From positions 496,001-560,000 of the forward strand of contig NZ_AP018724.1 of the NCBI RefSeq assembly GCF_004001245.1: a stretch of 64,000 nt of DNA. Direction: 5' to 3'. The translations under genes were made by a program, and so were the position numbers. This DNA comes from Sulfurivermis fontis (GTDB lineage Bacteria; Pseudomonadota; Gammaproteobacteria; Thiohalomonadales; Thiohalomonadaceae). Shown here one piece after another: positions 4,015 through 12,404 of the stretch (positions are counted from its first letter, which is position 1; the number at the start of each line of letters is the position of its first letter). The notes beneath the pieces are model-generated. The model ran no database searches. It was not told where the DNA came from and saw only the letters and a list, made by a program, of their open reading frames with translations.

Positions 4015-6225
4015 TCAACGCAGCGCCCGCTCCACATGGGCGCGGAACTCTTCCGGTCCCATGAAGCCCACCACGCGGAAGCCCTGGCGTTCCTGGCCGT
4101 CGGCGCCGAAGAACAGCAGGCTGGGCGGGCCGATGAGCTTGAAGTGGCGCAGCAGGGCCTGATCGTCGGCGTCGTTGGCGGTGACGTCGGCCTTGAGCAG
4201 CACGGCACCGGACAGGGCCTGGATCACGCCGGCATCGGAGAAGGTGTACTTGTCGAACTCCTTGCAGGAGACGCACCAGTCGGCGTAGAAGTCCAGCATC
4301 ACCGGCTTGCCCTGGGCGGCGGCGGCGGCCACCGCCTGTTCCATCTCGGCCACGGTCTTGACCTTGCGGAACTCCAGTTTGGCCGGTTGCATCATGCCGG
4401 CACCGCCGCCGAAGGCCACCCCACGCAGCGGCTGTAGCGGGTCGTTGCCGCCGGCGGCGGCGCCCACCAGCAGCAGGGCGCCGTGGATCAGCAGGGCCAG
4501 GCCGAGGCCCTTCCACAGCTTGCTCCAGCCGGAGGCCTGGTCCTTCAGCGGCTCCAGCGCGCCCATGTAAATGGCGGAGATGATGATCAGCAGGGCCCAG
4601 GCCAGCATGGTGACGAAGGCCGGCAGCACGCGCTCCAGCATCCACAGCGCCACCGCCAGCAGCATCACGCCGAACACCGCCTTGATGGCGTTCATCCAGC
4701 CGCCGGCGCGCGGCAGCAGCTTGCCTGCCGAGGTGCCGATGAGCAGCAGCGGTGCGCCCATGCCCATGGACAGGGCGAACAGGGCCAGGCCGCCCAGCAC
4801 CGCGTCGCCGGTCTGGCCGATGTAGATCAGGGCACCCATCAGCGGTGGTGCCACGCAGGGGCCGACGATCAGCGCCGACAGCAGGCCCATGATGGCCACG
4901 CCGATCAGGCTGCCGCCCTGCTGCTTGTTGGAGATTTCGCTCAGCTTGGTCTGCAGGGCCGAGGGCAGTTGCAGTTCGTAAAAGCCGAACATGGACAGGG
5001 CCAGCAGCACGAACACCAGGCTGAAGGCACCCAGTACCCACACGTTCTGGAACGCTGCTTGCAAATTGGCGCCGAACAGGCCGGCGAGCACGCCGGCCAC
5101 GGTGTAGGTCAGTGCCATGGCCAGCACGTAGACCAGAGACATGATGAAGGCCTTGCGCGTGGTCAGCCCTTGGCCCTGGCCGACGATAATGCTGGACAGG
5201 ATGGGGATCATCGGGAACACGCAGGGGGTGAAGGCCAGCAGCAGGCCGAGGCCGAGGAAGGTGAGGACGGTGAGCCAACGGTTGTCGCCGGCCAGGGCGG
5301 CGGCGAGGGAGTCCTGTTCCGACTGCGGCGCGGCGGCAGTCGCCGCGGCTGGCACGCTGGCGGTGCTGATGCCGGCGGCGGCCGGATTCAGGTTCACCTC
5401 CTTGCGGATCGGCGGGTAGCAGATGCCGGTGAGTTCGGCGCAGCCCTGATAGCTCACCAGCAGGGTGGCGTCGCCGCTGCGCTGCACCGGGATGCTCACC
5501 TCCACCGCATCGTGGAACACGAAGATGCGGCCGAAGAACTCGTCGTTCTTTTCCTCGCCGGCGGGCAGGGCGTACTGGCCCAGGATCGCCGCGCTGCCTT
5601 CCTTGAGCTGGAAGGCGAACTTGTCGCGGTACAGGTAATGGTGGGGCGCGATCTGCCAGCGCAGGGTCACGGTGTCGGCGTTGACGTCGGCAGCGAAGCG
5701 GAAGGCAACGTCGGGCTCCAGCACCTCGTCGTCTGCGGTGGCACCACTTAGGGACTGCTGCACCTGGCTCAGCGGTTTGGCCGCCACGGCCTTGGCCGGC
5801 AGGCTCACCTTGACGGTAGTGCGCTGCGGCGGATAGCACACGCCGATCTCGGCGCAGCCCTGGGTGCCGACAACCAATTCGAGGCTGTCCGGTGCTGCGG
5901 CGCCGCGGGTCAGCGGGATGTCGACGACAGTACGGCCGGCAAAGGTTTCCACTTTGCCGAAGAATTCGTCCTGCTTGACCTTGCCGGCGGGAAACCTGGC
6001 GGGTCCCAGGGTAATCCCGGGGGTGGTGGTGCTGAAGCTGAAGCGTTCCTTATATAAATAATAACCCTTGGCGATATCCCACTCGGCGCGCAGGGTATTG
6101 CCATCCACGGCGCTCACCTTGAGCGGGAAGGCCTGCTCTGGTGCCAGCAGTTCTTCTTCCTCGGCCATCGCCGGGACGGTCAGTAGCAGGGACAGGGTGA
6201 GCCAGAGCTTCAACAGGATTTTCAT
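4015..6225 (-). CDS. dsbD: thiol:disulfide interchange protein DsbD with duplicated N-terminal domain
   Basis: Transfers electrons from cytoplasmic thioredoxin across the inner membrane to periplasmic acceptors. It has 736 residues against about 565-600 normally. Order: signal peptide (1-21, cut after AMA), first alpha domain (about 26-145, Cys124-x5-Cys130 in QGCAEIGVCYPP), second alpha domain (about 168-280, Cys262-x6-Cys269 in QGCAELTGICYPP), linker, transmembrane beta domain (about 315-590, with FTPCVFPMIP and GPCVAPPLMG carrying its redox cysteines), and C-terminal thioredoxin-like gamma domain with DWCVSC. The extra length is the second alpha domain. It overlaps cutA by 4 nt and lies upstream of a TlpA-like protein. 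Confidence 0.95.
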   Translation of the reverse strand: MKILLKLWLTLSLLLTVPAMAEEEELLAPEQAFPLKVSAVDGNTLRAEWDIAKGYYLYKERFSFSTTTPGITLGPARFPAGKVKQDEFFGKVETFAGRTVVDIPLTRGAAAPDSLELVVGTQGCAEIGVCYPPQRTTVKVSLPAKAVAAKPLSQVQQSLSGATADDEVLEPDVAFRFAADVNADTVTLRWQIAPHHYLYRDKFAFQLKEGSAAILGQYALPAGEEKNDEFFGRIFVFHDAVEVSIPVQRSGDATLLVSYQGCAELTGICYPPIRKEVNLNPAAAGISTASVPAAATAAAPQSEQDSLAAALAGDNRWLTVLTFLGLGLLLAFTPCVFPMIPILSSIIVGQGQGLTTRKAFIMSLVYVLAMALTYTVAGVLAGLFGANLQAAFQNVWVLGAFSLVFVLLALSMFGFYELQLPSALQTKLSEISNKQQGGSLIGVAIMGLLSALIVGPCVAPPLMGALIYIGQTGDAVLGGLALFALSMGMGAPLLLIGTSAGKLLPRAGGWMNAIKAVFGVMLLAVALWMLERVLPAFVTMLAWALLIIISAIYMGALEPLKDQASGWSKLWKGLGLALLIHGALLLVGAAAGGNDPLQPLRGVAFGGGAGMMQPAKLEFRKVKTVAEMEQAVAAAAAQGKPVMLDFYADWCVSCKEFDKYTFSDAGVIQALSGAVLLKADVTANDADDQALLRHFKLIGPPSLLFFGADGQERQGFRVVGFMGPEEFRAHVERALR

Positions 6226-6545
6226 GCGTTGTTTTCCGTCTGTTGGTCGATCCAGTGGAGATAGGCCGGCAGGCCAGCGGTCAGTGTGACAGCGATGATC
6301 TCCGGCAGTTCATACGGGTGGTGGCGGCGCAGGGTTTCTTCCAGCGCGGCATAGCGCTCGCCGCGGGTCTTGATCAGCAGCTGACACTCGGTTTCCTGCT
6401 GCACCACGCCTTGCCATTCATAAATCGAGTGCACCTGGGGGACGATGTTGACGCAGGCGGCGAGGTGCTCGCGCACCAGCAGTTCGGCCAGGCCACGGGC
6501 GCATTCGAGATTAGGACAGGTGCAGAGAACGAGGTAGTGCGGCAT
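6222..6545 (-). CDS. cutA: divalent-cation tolerance protein CutA
   Basis: A small trimeric cytoplasmic protein of 107 residues associated with divalent metal tolerance; its biochemical role is still uncertain. Family features are VLCTCPNLECARGLAELLV, LAACVNIVPQVHSIYEWQG and the C-terminal HHPYELPEIIAV. The ATG at 6545 is preferred over the upstream ATG (6590) because it matches family length, although its ribosome-binding site is weak. Its stop overlaps the dsbD start (ATGA); cutA upstream of dsbD is a conserved proteobacterial pair. Confidence 0.94.
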   Translation of the reverse strand: MPHYLVLCTCPNLECARGLAELLVREHLAACVNIVPQVHSIYEWQGVVQQETECQLLIKTRGERYAALEETLRRHHPYELPEIIAVTLTAGLPAYLHWIDQQTENNA

Positions 6546-6627
6546 CGCTGCAAGATATCGGATTCGCCGTGCGGCTGCATCATCGGGCATAATCGTGGGG
6601 TCGATTTTCCCGCTGTTGAGAGTAGTG

Positions 6628-7074
6628 ATGTCCCTGCCGCGTCTTTTATTCCTGTTGTTGCTGTTGCTGCCCGTGCTCGAGATCTACCTGCTGATCCAGG
6701 TGGGCGGCGTGATCGGTGCCATTCCCACCATTGCCCTGGTGGTGTTCACCGCCGTGCTGGGTGCACTGTTGCTGCGCCATCAGGGGCTGGCGGTGTTGCA
6801 GCGGGTGCAGCAACTGACGCAGCAGGGCGAGGCGCCGACCGCAGCGATGCTGGAGGGGGTGGTGATCCTGCTGTCCGGGGCCATGTTGCTGCTGCCCGGT
6901 TTCCTCACCGATGCGCTGGGCCTGCTTGGCCTGGTGCCGCCGCTGCGCCAGGCCTTGGTGGCGGCCCTCCTGCGTCGTGGCCTGCCCCGCCGCCCGCCGC
7001 CGGGCGGACCCGCGGCGCGTCCGCGCCGCGGCCCCGCCACCCTCGAAGGCCAATACACCCGGGAAGACGACTGA
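6628..7074 (+). CDS. fxsA: FxsA family membrane protein
   Basis: A small inner-membrane protein of 148 residues; in E. coli overproduction of FxsA relieves exclusion of phage T7 by the F plasmid, but its normal role is unknown. The N-terminus is a run of leucines followed by EIYLLIQVGGVIGAIPT, typical of the family. Three to four hydrophobic helices are followed by a Pro/Arg-rich cytoplasmic tail of about 30 residues. The ATG at 6628 is chosen because the first transmembrane helix then begins at once. It lies upstream of groES, as in many gammaproteobacteria, and is divergent from cutA. Confidence 0.9.
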   Translation: MSLPRLLFLLLLLLPVLEIYLLIQVGGVIGAIPTIALVVFTAVLGALLLRHQGLAVLQRVQQLTQQGEAPTAAMLEGVVILLSGAMLLLPGFLTDALGLLGLVPPLRQALVAALLRRGLPRRPPPGGPAARPRRGPATLEGQYTREDD

Positions 7075-9423: not shown

Positions 9424-10581
9424 GGATGCTCTGAACAAGTAATCCAATATGAGCAAATCGTCGATATCAGCGAGTCATCACGCGCCGAATCGCACCGGCA
9501 GCGCCGGTATTTGCTCATCCCGGCGGCCCGTGAGCCGCATTTGGCGTAGTGCATCGGCACTACGCCTGCAAAGTACGCAGCAGCTGCCTGCGCACCAGGT
9601 AGATGTTGGCCAGGGCACAGGTGACAAACAGGCGGTTGGCATTCTTCTCCAATCCCCGGTAGCGGGTCTTGGCAAAACCGAATATCCGTTTGATGACACC
9701 GATGCTGTGTTCGACCCGTGCCCGGATGGTGGACTTGAGGCGGTTCTTCGCCCGTTCGGCTTCGTCGACCCAGCCCTTGTAGCGGTAGCGTCGGTGGGTG
9801 AGGTCGCGGGCCCTGGGCGCATGCTGTTTGATGACCTCGGTCTGGCCCTGATAGGCCGAATCCCCCCAGACGCGGGTTTCATCGCCGTGCAGCAGGTCGG
9901 GCAGGCAGTGGGAGTCGTGGACGTTGGCGGCGGTGGCCACCACCGAGTGGATGAGCTTGGTGCGGTGGTCGACACCGACATGGGCCTTCATGCCGAAATA
10001 CCACTGGTTGCCCTTCTTGGTCTGGTGCATGTCCGGGTCGCGCTGCTGGTCCTTGTTCTTGGTCGAGGACGGGGCGCTGATGAGGGTGGCATCGACGATG
10101 GTGCCGGTGCCCAGCTTGAAGCCATGGCGTTGCAGGTACTGGTGCATCTGCTGGAACAGCTTGCGACCCAGGCCATGCTGCTCCAGCAGGTGGCGGAAGC
10201 GGCAGATCGTGGTTTCGTCCGGCACCGGATGCTCGCCCAGGTCGATGCCGGCGAAGGCGCGCATGCTGAGCGAGTCGTACAGGGCTTCCTCGGCCATCGG
10301 GTCCGAGAGATTGAACCACTGCTGGAGGAAGTGGATGCGCAGCATCATCTCCAGCTCCTTCGGCGGCCGGCCGTTACCGGCCTGCGGGTAGTGCGGCGCT
10401 ATCAGCGCGCACAGCTCCGCCCACGGCAGCAGGCGGTCCATGTCGGACAGAAACGCCTGGCGCTTGGTCGCCTTGGTGTATTTCTCGAACCCCGTGGTCA
10501 TGCTCAGTTGTTTCATTTTCCCCGTCCTCGGCTCCGGTCATGCGGTTGCAAGATCAGATCGGGGACTTTTGCAGAAGTTCC
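9424..10581 (-). mobile_element. IS5-family insertion sequence
   Basis: A 1158-bp element with a single transposase gene. The left end begins GGATGCTCTGAACAAGT; the right end read inwards begins GGAACTTCTGCAAAAGT, so the terminal repeats are imperfect but share the TCTG and AAGT blocks. It is flanked by CTAA at 9420-9423 and 10582-10585, a 4-bp target duplication of the YTAR type typical of IS5. The right-hand CTAA is shared with the adjacent MITE. It lies between groESL and the sigma/anti-sigma genes without breaking a visible gene. Confidence 0.88.
9560..10516 (-). CDS. IS5-family transposase
   Basis: A 318-residue DDE transposase that cuts and rejoins the ends of its IS element. The catalytic blocks of the IS5 group are visible: VDATLISAPSSTKN with the first Asp, WGDSAYQGQTEVI with the second Asp, and ARVEHSIGVIKRIFGFAKTR carrying the Glu and the downstream Arg/Lys. 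The N-terminal HTH-like region contains GNGRPPKELEMMLRIHFLQ. The reading frame is intact over the usual length, so the enzyme is probably active and could also mobilise the related MITEs in this window. Confidence 0.95.
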   Translation of the reverse strand: MKQLSMTTGFEKYTKATKRQAFLSDMDRLLPWAELCALIAPHYPQAGNGRPPKELEMMLRIHFLQQWFNLSDPMAEEALYDSLSMRAFAGIDLGEHPVPDETTICRFRHLLEQHGLGRKLFQQMHQYLQRHGFKLGTGTIVDATLISAPSSTKNKDQQRDPDMHQTKKGNQWYFGMKAHVGVDHRTKLIHSVVATAANVHDSHCLPDLLHGDETRVWGDSAYQGQTEVIKQHAPRARDLTHRRYRYKGWVDEAERAKNRLKSTIRARVEHSIGVIKRIFGFAKTRYRGLEKNANRLFVTCALANIYLVRRQLLRTLQA

Positions 10582-10585
10582 CTAA

Positions 10586-10738
10586 GGAAGGTCTGAATAA
10601 GTCCATCCTGGACTTCTCAGACCACGCCAATCGAAAAGTGTGATTTTCGATTGGCTTCGATTTTCAACGAGTTATCGTCGTTGAAAATTGGCGGCACATC
10701 ACTGTGCCGCGGAAGCTCTGAACTTATTCAGAGCTTCC
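10586..10738 (+). mobile_element. IS5-related MITE, copy 1 (153 bp)
   Basis: A non-coding element with ends GGAAGGTCTGAATAAGT (left) and, read inwards from the right, GGAAGCTCTGAATAAGT, the latter matching the left end of the neighbouring IS at 15 of 17 positions. Flanked by CTAA at 10582-10585 and 10739-10742. Inside are several hairpins, for example the one around ttcaacgagttatcgtcgttgaa. Relative to the 205-bp copies it lacks about 52 bp in the left half. Its right target duplication supplies the TAG stop of the anti-sigma gene read leftwards. Confidence 0.9.
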
Positions 10739-11479
10739 CTAAACCTTCACGTACAGCCAGCCTTCCTGCAAGCGATCCACCACCCGTTCCAGTCCGGACT
10801 TGGTGGTACCCACTTCGGGCAGCAGCCGGGTGTCGACGCCCTGCTCCTGCAGCCAACGCAGGGTGTTGGCGCAGGCCAGCACGGCGAGATTGTCGTACTT
10901 GCGGATCAGTTCCTGGGTACGCTGCGGGTAGGGCGAGACATCGGAGCGTAGCAGGGCCATGCCCTCGCCGTTGGCTACCACCTCCAGCTTGATGGGAATG
11001 CCGCGGGCACGATAGGAGCTGAGCAGCGTGTCCACCTCGTCCAAGGCATAGCCGAGCTTGGCCGGGTCGCTGGTGGTGATGTGCAGCACTACGTTCTGCT
11101 GCATGCCCTGGGCGGACAGCAGCTGCACGGTCTGGAAGGCGTCGAGGTCCTGGCGCTCGTAGGCGACCTGTTCCGGCAGCGCGACGGTGTTCCGCGCGCC
11201 GTTGGCGAACCAGCCGGCGGCGGCGCCCACCGCCAGCAGCACCGAGGCGGCGACGGCATCGCTCAGGCGCCAGCGGCGTGGCGGCGTCGCTGGCGCCGGG
11301 ACCAATGGCGGTTCGGCATAGGCATGGCGCACCATGTCCTGCAGGCGGCGGATTTCGCACACCTTACGGCTCAGGTCGTCATCCTGCTTGAGGGCAGCAA
11401 AGATCTGCTCCTGCTCTTCCGTTGTGAGCTGGCCGTCGACGAAGGCGTGCAGCTGCTCATCGGAGATGTGTCTGTTCAT
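10739..11479 (-). CDS. transmembrane anti-sigma factor with C-terminal DsrE-like domain
   Basis: A 246-residue protein made of three parts. Residues 1-58 (starting MNRHISDEQLHAFVDGQL) resemble the anti-sigma fold that binds ECF sigma factors, but with only one Cys (Cys41), so the usual zinc motif is absent. Residues 73-92 form one transmembrane helix. Residues 125-246 look like a DsrE/COG1416-type domain, with the conserved block VLACANTLRWLQEQGV (Cys203) and an ending SGLERVVDRLQEGWLYVKV. By the anti-sigma topology rule the DsrE-like part would be periplasmic. The start codon overlaps the sigma-factor stop by 1 nt (TAATG). DsrE proteins carry sulfane sulfur, so a sulfur or thiol signal is a reasonable guess but unproven. 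Confidence 0.82.
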   Translation of the reverse strand: MNRHISDEQLHAFVDGQLTTEEQEQIFAALKQDDDLSRKVCEIRRLQDMVRHAYAEPPLVPAPATPPRRWRLSDAVAASVLLAVGAAAGWFANGARNTVALPEQVAYERQDLDAFQTVQLLSAQGMQQNVVLHITTSDPAKLGYALDEVDTLLSSYRARGIPIKLEVVANGEGMALLRSDVSPYPQRTQELIRKYDNLAVLACANTLRWLQEQGVDTRLLPEVGTTKSGLERVVDRLQEGWLYVKV

Positions 11480-12042
11480 TATTTGATCCTCACCAGCCTT
11501 GGTTCCTGTTGCCGGCCATTCACGGCTGCGTCGATCAGTTTTTCCTTCAGTGCCTGGCGCGCGCGGCACAGGCGGCTCATCACGGTGCCGATGGGGATGG
11601 TCAGGATATCCGCCACCTCGGCATAACTGAATCCTTCCAGGTCCACCAGGGTCACCACCTCGCGTTGTCCCTGCGGCAGTTGCGCCACCGCCTCGCGTAC
11701 CTGGCGCACGGTCTGCATTTCCTGGTTGGCCTGTTCCGGGCTGGCGTCGCTCTGGAACGCGTTTTCATCGAACTCCTGCATGTCGCGCCGGCTGCGCAGA
11801 TGACCGCGCCAGCAGTTGGTCAGGATGCTGAACAGCCAGCTGTCCATCGCTTCGAAGGAGCGCAGGCTGGCGGCGCTCTTCATCGCCTGCAACATGGTTT
11901 CCTGCACCAGGTCGTCGGCCAGGTGGGTGTTGTGACACCAGGAGTACGCCACCCGGTACAAGCGCTTGCGGTTCTGCTCGAGGCGATTGTTGAAATCGTG
12001 CGAGCGGCAAAACAGCCCCAATATCCCCATGATCTCCTCCAC
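11479..12042 (-). CDS. ECF-type RNA polymerase sigma factor
   Basis: A 187-residue sigma-70-family protein with only regions 2 and 4, as in group 4 (ECF) factors. Region 2 covers about residues 20-90 (CHNTHLADDLVQETMLQA, then SWLFSILTNCWRGHLR); region 4 covers about residues 112-165 (LPQGQREVVTLVDLEGFSYAEVADILTIPIGTVMSRLCRARQAL, given here as the helix-turn-helix block). It would direct transcription of its own operon and unknown targets when released from the anti-sigma partner encoded directly downstream. The start could also be the ATG 12 nt inside (12030). Confidence 0.93.
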   Translation of the reverse strand: MEEIMGILGLFCRSHDFNNRLEQNRKRLYRVAYSWCHNTHLADDLVQETMLQAMKSAASLRSFEAMDSWLFSILTNCWRGHLRSRRDMQEFDENAFQSDASPEQANQEMQTVRQVREAVAQLPQGQREVVTLVDLEGFSYAEVADILTIPIGTVMSRLCRARQALKEKLIDAAVNGRQQEPRLVRIK

Positions 12043-12404
12043 TTCAGCTCTTCGGTTCAGTTCTTGTTGTTATGCGGCGTCTGTTGCGCCTTGCCGGTTA
12101 TAGATGCGGCGGCCACCCGGACTATTCCATTGGTCGCCGACGGAATAAATCATCCCTGGCAGCCATCTTAACCCCGCAGACAACCGACGCAAAGCCACTG
12201 TTATTTAATGCCTTTTTTGTGTGGTTTTGTGCCGGCCGGCTTGGGCGTGCGGCCCGTCCCCCATTTCGCGGGCCGCATGTATTTGTGGGGATCCTCCTTT
12301 CCCCCACCTTGGGCTGGGATTCGGCCGACATCAGCCCCGGCCGGGTCCCGGTTTCTTTTTGCCTTACGGTACAATCAGGCTTTCCCTTCCAGGCCGGATC
12401 GATT
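12043..12404. other. divergent control region between sigma factor and glnE
   Basis: No gene supported, although a frame stays open upstream of glnE. On the minus strand a GGAATA ... TCTATA pair with about 16-17 bp spacing lies near 12095-12130 and could be an ECF promoter for the sigma operon itself (weak). On the plus strand TACAAT at 12370-12375 could be a -10 for glnE, but no good -35 is seen. Confidence 0.35.

Follow-up and report, generated by a model that had tools for sequence, protein, structure and literature searches.

Among the closest described systems are the ECF26 sigma factors RpoE1 and RpoE4 from Sinorhizobium meliloti and SigE from Starkeya novella. These belong to ECF sigma/anti-sigma pairs encoded beside genes of sulfur-oxidizing enzymes, use promoters with a -35 GGAAT and a -10 CGTC element, and respond to sulfur compounds (PMC3511301, PMC6527743); the locus described here is similar in the gene pairing and in the predicted promoter. 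Compared by published descriptions, the ECF26 factors control sulfite oxidation (sorT/sorAB), whereas the targets predicted here are sox, transport and thiol genes. The way in which ECF26 anti-sigma factors sense sulfite was left open (PMC3511301, PMC6527743). The ECF sigma-2 of Arcobacter butzleri also activates sox genes (PMC3445524); however, its regulon is broadly respiratory and no DsrE sensor was reported for it. In Hyphomicrobium denitrificans, the regulators SoxR and sHdrR, with SoxT, are likewise connected to the switching on of sox genes, a sulfane-sulfur response and a YeeE-like partner (PMC11582611, PMC10451225). SoxR and sHdrR are cytoplasmic ArsR-type repressors fed through a transporter, whereas the candidate regulator here is a transmembrane anti-sigma factor. 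The sensing of reduced sulfur outside the cell by bacteria has been described as poorly understood (PMC11582611).

The class-I anti-sigma factors RseA, RsiW, RslA, ChrR and RskA have a three-helix, sigma-binding N-terminal domain, are mostly transmembrane, and are encoded directly behind their sigma factors. The protein studied here has the same gene order and a predicted three-helix N-domain, but differs in its DsrE-like, putative sensor domain and in lacking a ZAS motif. The DsrE fold, an aligned cysteine and a C-terminal GW-Y block are shared with MTH1491 and ST0148, and the fold with DsrEFH and TusBCD; unlike in these proteins, the DsrE domain of the fusion is membrane-anchored, predicted to lie outside, and joined to an anti-sigma domain. 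Both transmembrane anti-sigma factors and DsrE proteins have been described before, and there are earlier examples of ECF factors that control sulfite or sox genes (PMC3511301, PMC6527743, PMC3445524). Searches of open full-text papers gave no description of an anti-sigma factor with a DsrE sensor or of a matching regulon.

The pair is located in a window of 64,000 nucleotides from Sulfurivermis fontis (contig NZ_AP018724.1, positions 496,001 to 560,000), which is the whole stretch analysed; groEL and glnE are neighbours of the pair. The ECF sigma factor gene (11479..12030, minus strand) encodes 183 amino acids; its start is best set at the ATG at 12030, which has a GGAGGAG ribosome-binding site in front. 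The small product matches Pfam Sigma70_r2 (2.1e-14) and r4_2 (7.4e-18), both over the Pfam cut-offs, so it has the regions 2 and 4 and the size of an ECF factor; both regions had been recognized in an earlier note on this DNA. Its TAA (11479-11481) shares one nucleotide with the ATG (11479-11477) of the next gene in a TAATG, the overlap seen in that note. The second gene (10739..11479, minus strand) encodes the transmembrane anti-sigma factor with a DsrE domain, which has the 246 residues first given for it. We consider it likely that the two genes form an ECF system which senses periplasmic sulfur through the DsrE residue Cys203 and turns on genes for sulfur oxidation and for the handling of thiols; bacteria that carry the pair probably use it to detect extracellular sulfur. 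The architecture, the family, the promoter and the predicted regulon rest on comparative computation.

An AlphaFold2 model of the fusion was built on 69 aligned relatives (pLDDT 88.7). It contains three N-terminal helices (7-14, 20-32 and 34-55), then a hydrophobic one (72-94), one in the linker (104-122) and, from 129 to 246, an alpha/beta domain. The three helices correspond to the anti-sigma domain (residues 1-60; 11300..11479, minus strand). When this N-domain was folded alone, the top Foldseek matches were almost all class-I anti-sigma domains (ChrR, RsiW, RslA and RskA), with weak E-values of about 1-5; the VIA Z-scores against anti-sigma domains were 6-7, and there were weak profile matches to other anti-sigma genes. 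Because these E-values are weak and the Z-scores only 6-7, the class-I anti-sigma fold is likely but not proven, and the anti-sigma-like N-terminus read from the sequence is supported at that strength. In all 80 loci of the named set the fusion gene lies directly downstream of its sigma gene, as for class-I anti-sigma factors; binding and inhibition of the sigma factor by the N-domain are putative. The zinc motif H-x3-C-x2-C was found in none of the 69 relatives, in agreement with its reported absence from this protein. Separately, Cys41 in the cytoplasmic anti-sigma domain (window 11357-11359) is conserved in 65 of 69 relatives despite the lack of a zinc motif.

A single transmembrane helix had been placed at residues 73-92; the single helix stands, whereas AlphaFold2 extends its limits to 72-94 (11198..11266, minus strand). 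Lysine and arginine average 3.5 before this helix vs 1.1 after it, and an N-in orientation was obtained for 64 of 69 relatives. The positive N-terminal side therefore places the DsrE domain outside the membrane.

The periplasmic DsrE/COG1416-type domain comprises residues 128-246 (10742..11098, minus strand), on the basis of phmmer, profile, Foldseek and VIA-align comparisons; residues 125-246 had been put forward for structure prediction, and the domain starts near residue 128. Against 1l1s, the E-values were 8e-7 (phmmer), 2e-17 (profile) and 2.4e-9 (Foldseek). The best VIA-align match was MTH1491 (1l1s; Z 18.3), followed by ST0148 (17.5), DsrEFH (12.5) and TusBCD (12.5). The earlier note had suggested a comparison of the predicted structure with DsrE and TusD, and a profile search that could speak against the assignment; the AlphaFold2 domain matches DsrEFH and TusBCD at the Z of 12.5 just given, and the profile result confirms that the C-terminal half is DsrE-like. 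In the profile alignment, Cys203 (codon 10871..10873, minus strand) aligns with the cysteine of 1l1s and 2pd2, at the end of the third strand as in DsrE proteins. The C-terminal EGWLYVKV block is also present. Thus the fold, the cysteine and this block of the proposed DsrE/COG1416 assignment hold, but the Pfam DsrE model PF02635 itself gives no match to the fusion above its gathering score; a stand-alone DsrE neighbour scores 40.6 with this model (cut-off 22.7). No family of Pfam, NCBIfam or PADLOC was above cut-off for the fusion.

All of 94 fusions retain Cys203 and Trp241, and exactly one cysteine was found in the outer domain of each of 69 relatives. Since Cys203 is alone in the DsrE domain, an internal disulfide is ruled out. 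The single cysteine fits persulfide, S-thiosulfonate or mixed-disulfide chemistry. Its invariance also bears on whether the domain could act without sulfur chemistry, as a docking domain for a secreted DsrE protein that itself brings the signal, in the way that RseB serves RseA. We regard such docking as rather unlikely. DsrE-family proteins do form trimers or hexamers, as seen in the known structures of the oligomeric DsrEFH and TusBCD; however, a pure docking domain would not need a cysteine that is invariant in the fusion itself. In the tree, the fusion DsrE domains are separated from the stand-alone ones by one supported branch (99/92), which is consistent with one fusion event.

The sigma/fusion pair is found in hundreds of bacteria, mostly sulfur-oxidizing, and the fusion family is widespread within the Gammaproteobacteria as defined by GTDB. 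Dozens of full-length fusions were present among 369 gammaproteobacterial genomes, and one scan of species genomes gave 205 fusion relatives, 80 of which were kept as the named-loci set for neighbour counts. The kept loci are from Thiobacillus, Thiohalobacter, Sulfuricella, Sulfuritalea, Sulfurimicrobium and Thiogranum, as well as Pandoraea terrae, one strain of Cupriavidus and many Proteobacteria without further classification. The hosts include sulfur oxidizers that can be cultured, among them Thiobacillus denitrificans and Thiohalobacter. Outside the GTDB Gammaproteobacteria, no full-length fusion was found in 398 Pseudomonadota genomes at E <= 1e-20. SoxX was present in 65 of 67 fusion genomes vs 96 of 302 others (p ~4e-25, kinship ignored). 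The nearest sigma factors without a fusion share at most 43% identity (299 genomes).

A search for the fusion beside ECF sigma genes, also suggested earlier, was positive throughout: in the 80 named loci (kinship ignored), the fusion had the sigma gene beside it in every case, while a stand-alone DsrE gene adjoined it in 58 loci, a porin gene in 30 and sox genes in 10. For example, locus L327 has the order sigma, fusion, soxX, soxY, soxZ, soxA, soxB, yeeE. Most of the stand-alone DsrE proteins inspected in the discovery set start with a signal peptide or a lipoprotein signal. The frequent adjacency of DsrE genes would agree with docking, as would the promoter motif described below, carried by 29 of 68 stand-alone DsrE genes; whereas the lineage of the window retains the fusion with no DsrE gene adjoining it, though its genome has others elsewhere. 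A porin-like family starting with WLMLQGTE...QPxY was also observed (L034 3182-4591, L037 10744-12126, L041 10591-12036), often beside a secreted DsrE gene; neither Pfam nor NCBIfam gave a family above cut-off for it, and it showed weak similarity to the porin ExtI.

Promoter elements were sought by paired-word counting upstream of the sigma genes, with no prior motif supplied. The motif GGAAT-N17-CGTC was recovered upstream of 44 of 94 sigma genes (background 0.3), and also upstream of stand-alone DsrE genes. The form GGAATA-N16-C(G/A)TCT, with at most one mismatch, occurs in 75 of 83 sigma upstream regions of named loci, which overlap in part with the discovery-set genomes, vs 0.35 in shuffles. 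At sigma genes, it was found in three of three with a fusion and in none of the 27 closest ECF sigma genes without one. The motif agrees with the published consensus of the sulfite-responsive ECF26 factors (-35 GGAAT, -10 CGTC; PMC6527743), which is an independent agreement with the de novo result.

This shared consensus (GGAAT and CGTC) raises sulfite as a possible signal, as for the ECF26 factors RpoE4 and SigE of S. meliloti and S. novella. Sulfite arises from thiosulfate, and a DsrE cysteine could form an S-sulfonate with it. No sulfite dehydrogenase was seen among the predicted targets, however, and the failure to find a DsrE fusion outside the Gammaproteobacteria in the set of 398 Pseudomonadota genomes also argues against sulfite, which we consider improbable as the signal.

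The predicted targets were examined across genomes. Genome-wide motif sites numbered 39 in the genus of the window, compared with 3 for the reversed control; for 20 distant fusion genomes, the corresponding numbers were 37 and 6. The conserved sites in the genus precede the sigma operon, cutA-dsbD, secreted DsrE genes and the gene of a secreted HbpS-like protein; conserved intergenic sites were also found upstream of a gene of a secreted (periplasmic) thioredoxin-like protein beside hemC (four species) and of a YeeE/YedE transporter gene (three species). Outside the fusion loci, sites in the distant genomes precede soxX-Y-Z-A in three genomes (SoxY uncalled in one) and soxB and YeeE in two each; others lie before cutA-dsbD-tlpA-like genes, secreted DsrE genes and a row of cytochrome and porin genes. 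The names SoxX, SoxY, SoxA, SoxB and DsbD come from NCBIfam models scoring above cut-off, and that of YeeE from the Pfam model Sulf_transp. At every sox-adjacent locus examined, one or more sites point to the sigma operon; at most of these loci a further, divergent site points away from that operon, and in several cases it faces the sox genes. Some exact motif matches (for example in L213, L216 and L217) were rejected as targets, as they lie inside coding sequence. The secreted HbpS-like (PF03928) protein has its upstream site in two species of the genus (L222 678-1193 and L223 2529-3092).

Of 18 fusion genomes examined, 6 have a site upstream of soxX, as does 1 of 12 without a fusion; because such sites separate the genomes this weakly, sox is ranked as a lineage-specific predicted target. 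The corresponding counts for cutA were 4 of 22 distant fusion genomes vs 1 of 22 without a fusion, and cutA sites are present in most genomes with the groEL-glnE layout. The predicted targets are sulfur-oxidation, sulfur-transport and periplasmic thiol genes, so the sulfur or thiol signal once suggested for this locus gains support at the level of prediction.

Two other signals can be weighed against this regulon. One is periplasmic thiol/disulfide stress, in which Cys203 would form mixed disulfides and reductant would be supplied via DsbD and a periplasmic thioredoxin. The conserved prediction of cutA-dsbD and the thioredoxin-like protein as targets in the genus points this way; however, the domain has one cysteine and hence no internal disulfide, and the sox, YeeE and secreted DsrE targets point towards sulfur compounds. 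Moreover, the Sox system itself involves a supply of reductant in the periplasm (SoxV/SoxW). We therefore find thiol stress unlikely to be the main signal, though the regulon could reflect a thiol or sulfite response rather than one to sulfane sulfur. The other is general envelope stress, with the sulfur links stemming from life in sulfur oxidizers. The porin genes adjoining 30 of 80 loci and the glnE and groEL neighbours in the window would suit it, but in unrelated families the predicted targets form a narrow set centred on sulfur, and neither protease nor chaperone genes were observed behind the motif; general envelope stress is thus very unlikely.

The preferred reading is a response to periplasmic sulfur, and for it a sequence of steps may be proposed, in which we infer the ligand, the cysteine chemistry, the release step and the direction of the response. 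The N-domain would hold the sigma factor in the cytoplasm. The periplasmic DsrE domain, itself presumably the sensor, would take up or react with reduced sulfur species through Cys203; the candidates are thiosulfate or sulfane sulfur, possibly passed on by a secreted DsrE protein or SoxYZ. The modified fusion would then free the sigma factor, probably via regulated proteolysis, which is the presumed route, or a conformational change. The freed sigma factor would transcribe GGAATA-N16-C(G/A)TCT promoters at its own operon, secreted DsrE genes and porin genes and, depending on the lineage, at soxXYZA/soxB, YeeE/TsuA-like sulfur transporter, periplasmic thioredoxin and cutA-dsbD genes. A more far-reaching version, tentative and a little short of evenly balanced in our judgement, is a transmembrane anti-sigma factor gated by sulfane sulfur or thiosulfate, in which Sox intermediates or secreted DsrE intermediates load the periplasmic DsrE cysteine directly; it would be a major switch of thiosulfate oxidation in the Gammaproteobacteria, in which a sulfur carrier has turned into a transcriptional sensor. 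The overall picture drawn in the earlier note, an anti-sigma factor whose input domain would be a DsrE domain in the periplasm, is supported by fold, topology and family conservation. The fusion system is a concrete, conserved candidate in which an outside sulfur-carrier domain is tied to a sigma factor for which promoter and targets are predicted.

In the window, the predicted ECF promoter of the sigma/anti-sigma operon is GGAATA-N16-CATCT at 12102..12128 (minus strand), a match to the class-wide motif. The predicted promoter of cutA-dsbD(-tlpA-like) is GGAATA-N16-CATCA at 6626..6652 (minus strand), with one mismatch, and is conserved in the genus and beyond. The predicted target operon (4015..6590, minus strand) consists of cutA (6222-6545 or 6590) and dsbD (4015-6225), whose product is above cut-off for DsbD. 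The site overlaps the start of the divergent fxsA, so coding constraint adds to its conservation; the spacer varies freely in distant genomes. A motif scan also revealed a second exact site at 12142..12168 (plus strand), divergent and facing glnE (glutamine synthetase adenylyltransferase), which is also present in related species. It probably marks the position that genes for secreted DsrE and porin occupy in other lineages (compare the layouts of L139 and L313), and may be left over from a DsrE-porin promoter or may truly control glnE.

For the window genome, the motif predicts as targets the sigma operon, cutA-dsbD, the thioredoxin-like gene and the YeeE gene, and perhaps also a DsrE lipoprotein gene with a one-mismatch site and glnE. 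No motif was found within 1 kb of the best-scoring of its two soxX copies. No DsrE gene lies beside the fusion, and four stand-alone DsrE-type genes are located away from the sigma pair. The DsrE-family lipoprotein mentioned above contains a cysteine (L230 2248-2709; window genome 183250-183672).

Mobile elements were also observed near the pair. An element of about 155 bp (window 10583-10742), with inverted ends GGAAGGTCTGAATAAG/CTTATTCAGAGCTTCC and CTAA flanks, lies directly against the stop codon of the anti-sigma gene; the window genome has about 40 copies with 94-96% identity, which make up a MITE-like family. An IS5-like transposase gene (window 9560-10516) sits between groEL and the anti-sigma gene. 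It was not called at that place in the related species G001, G002 and G004, and the related species G003 has a second sigma/fusion/DsrE/porin set there (L034).
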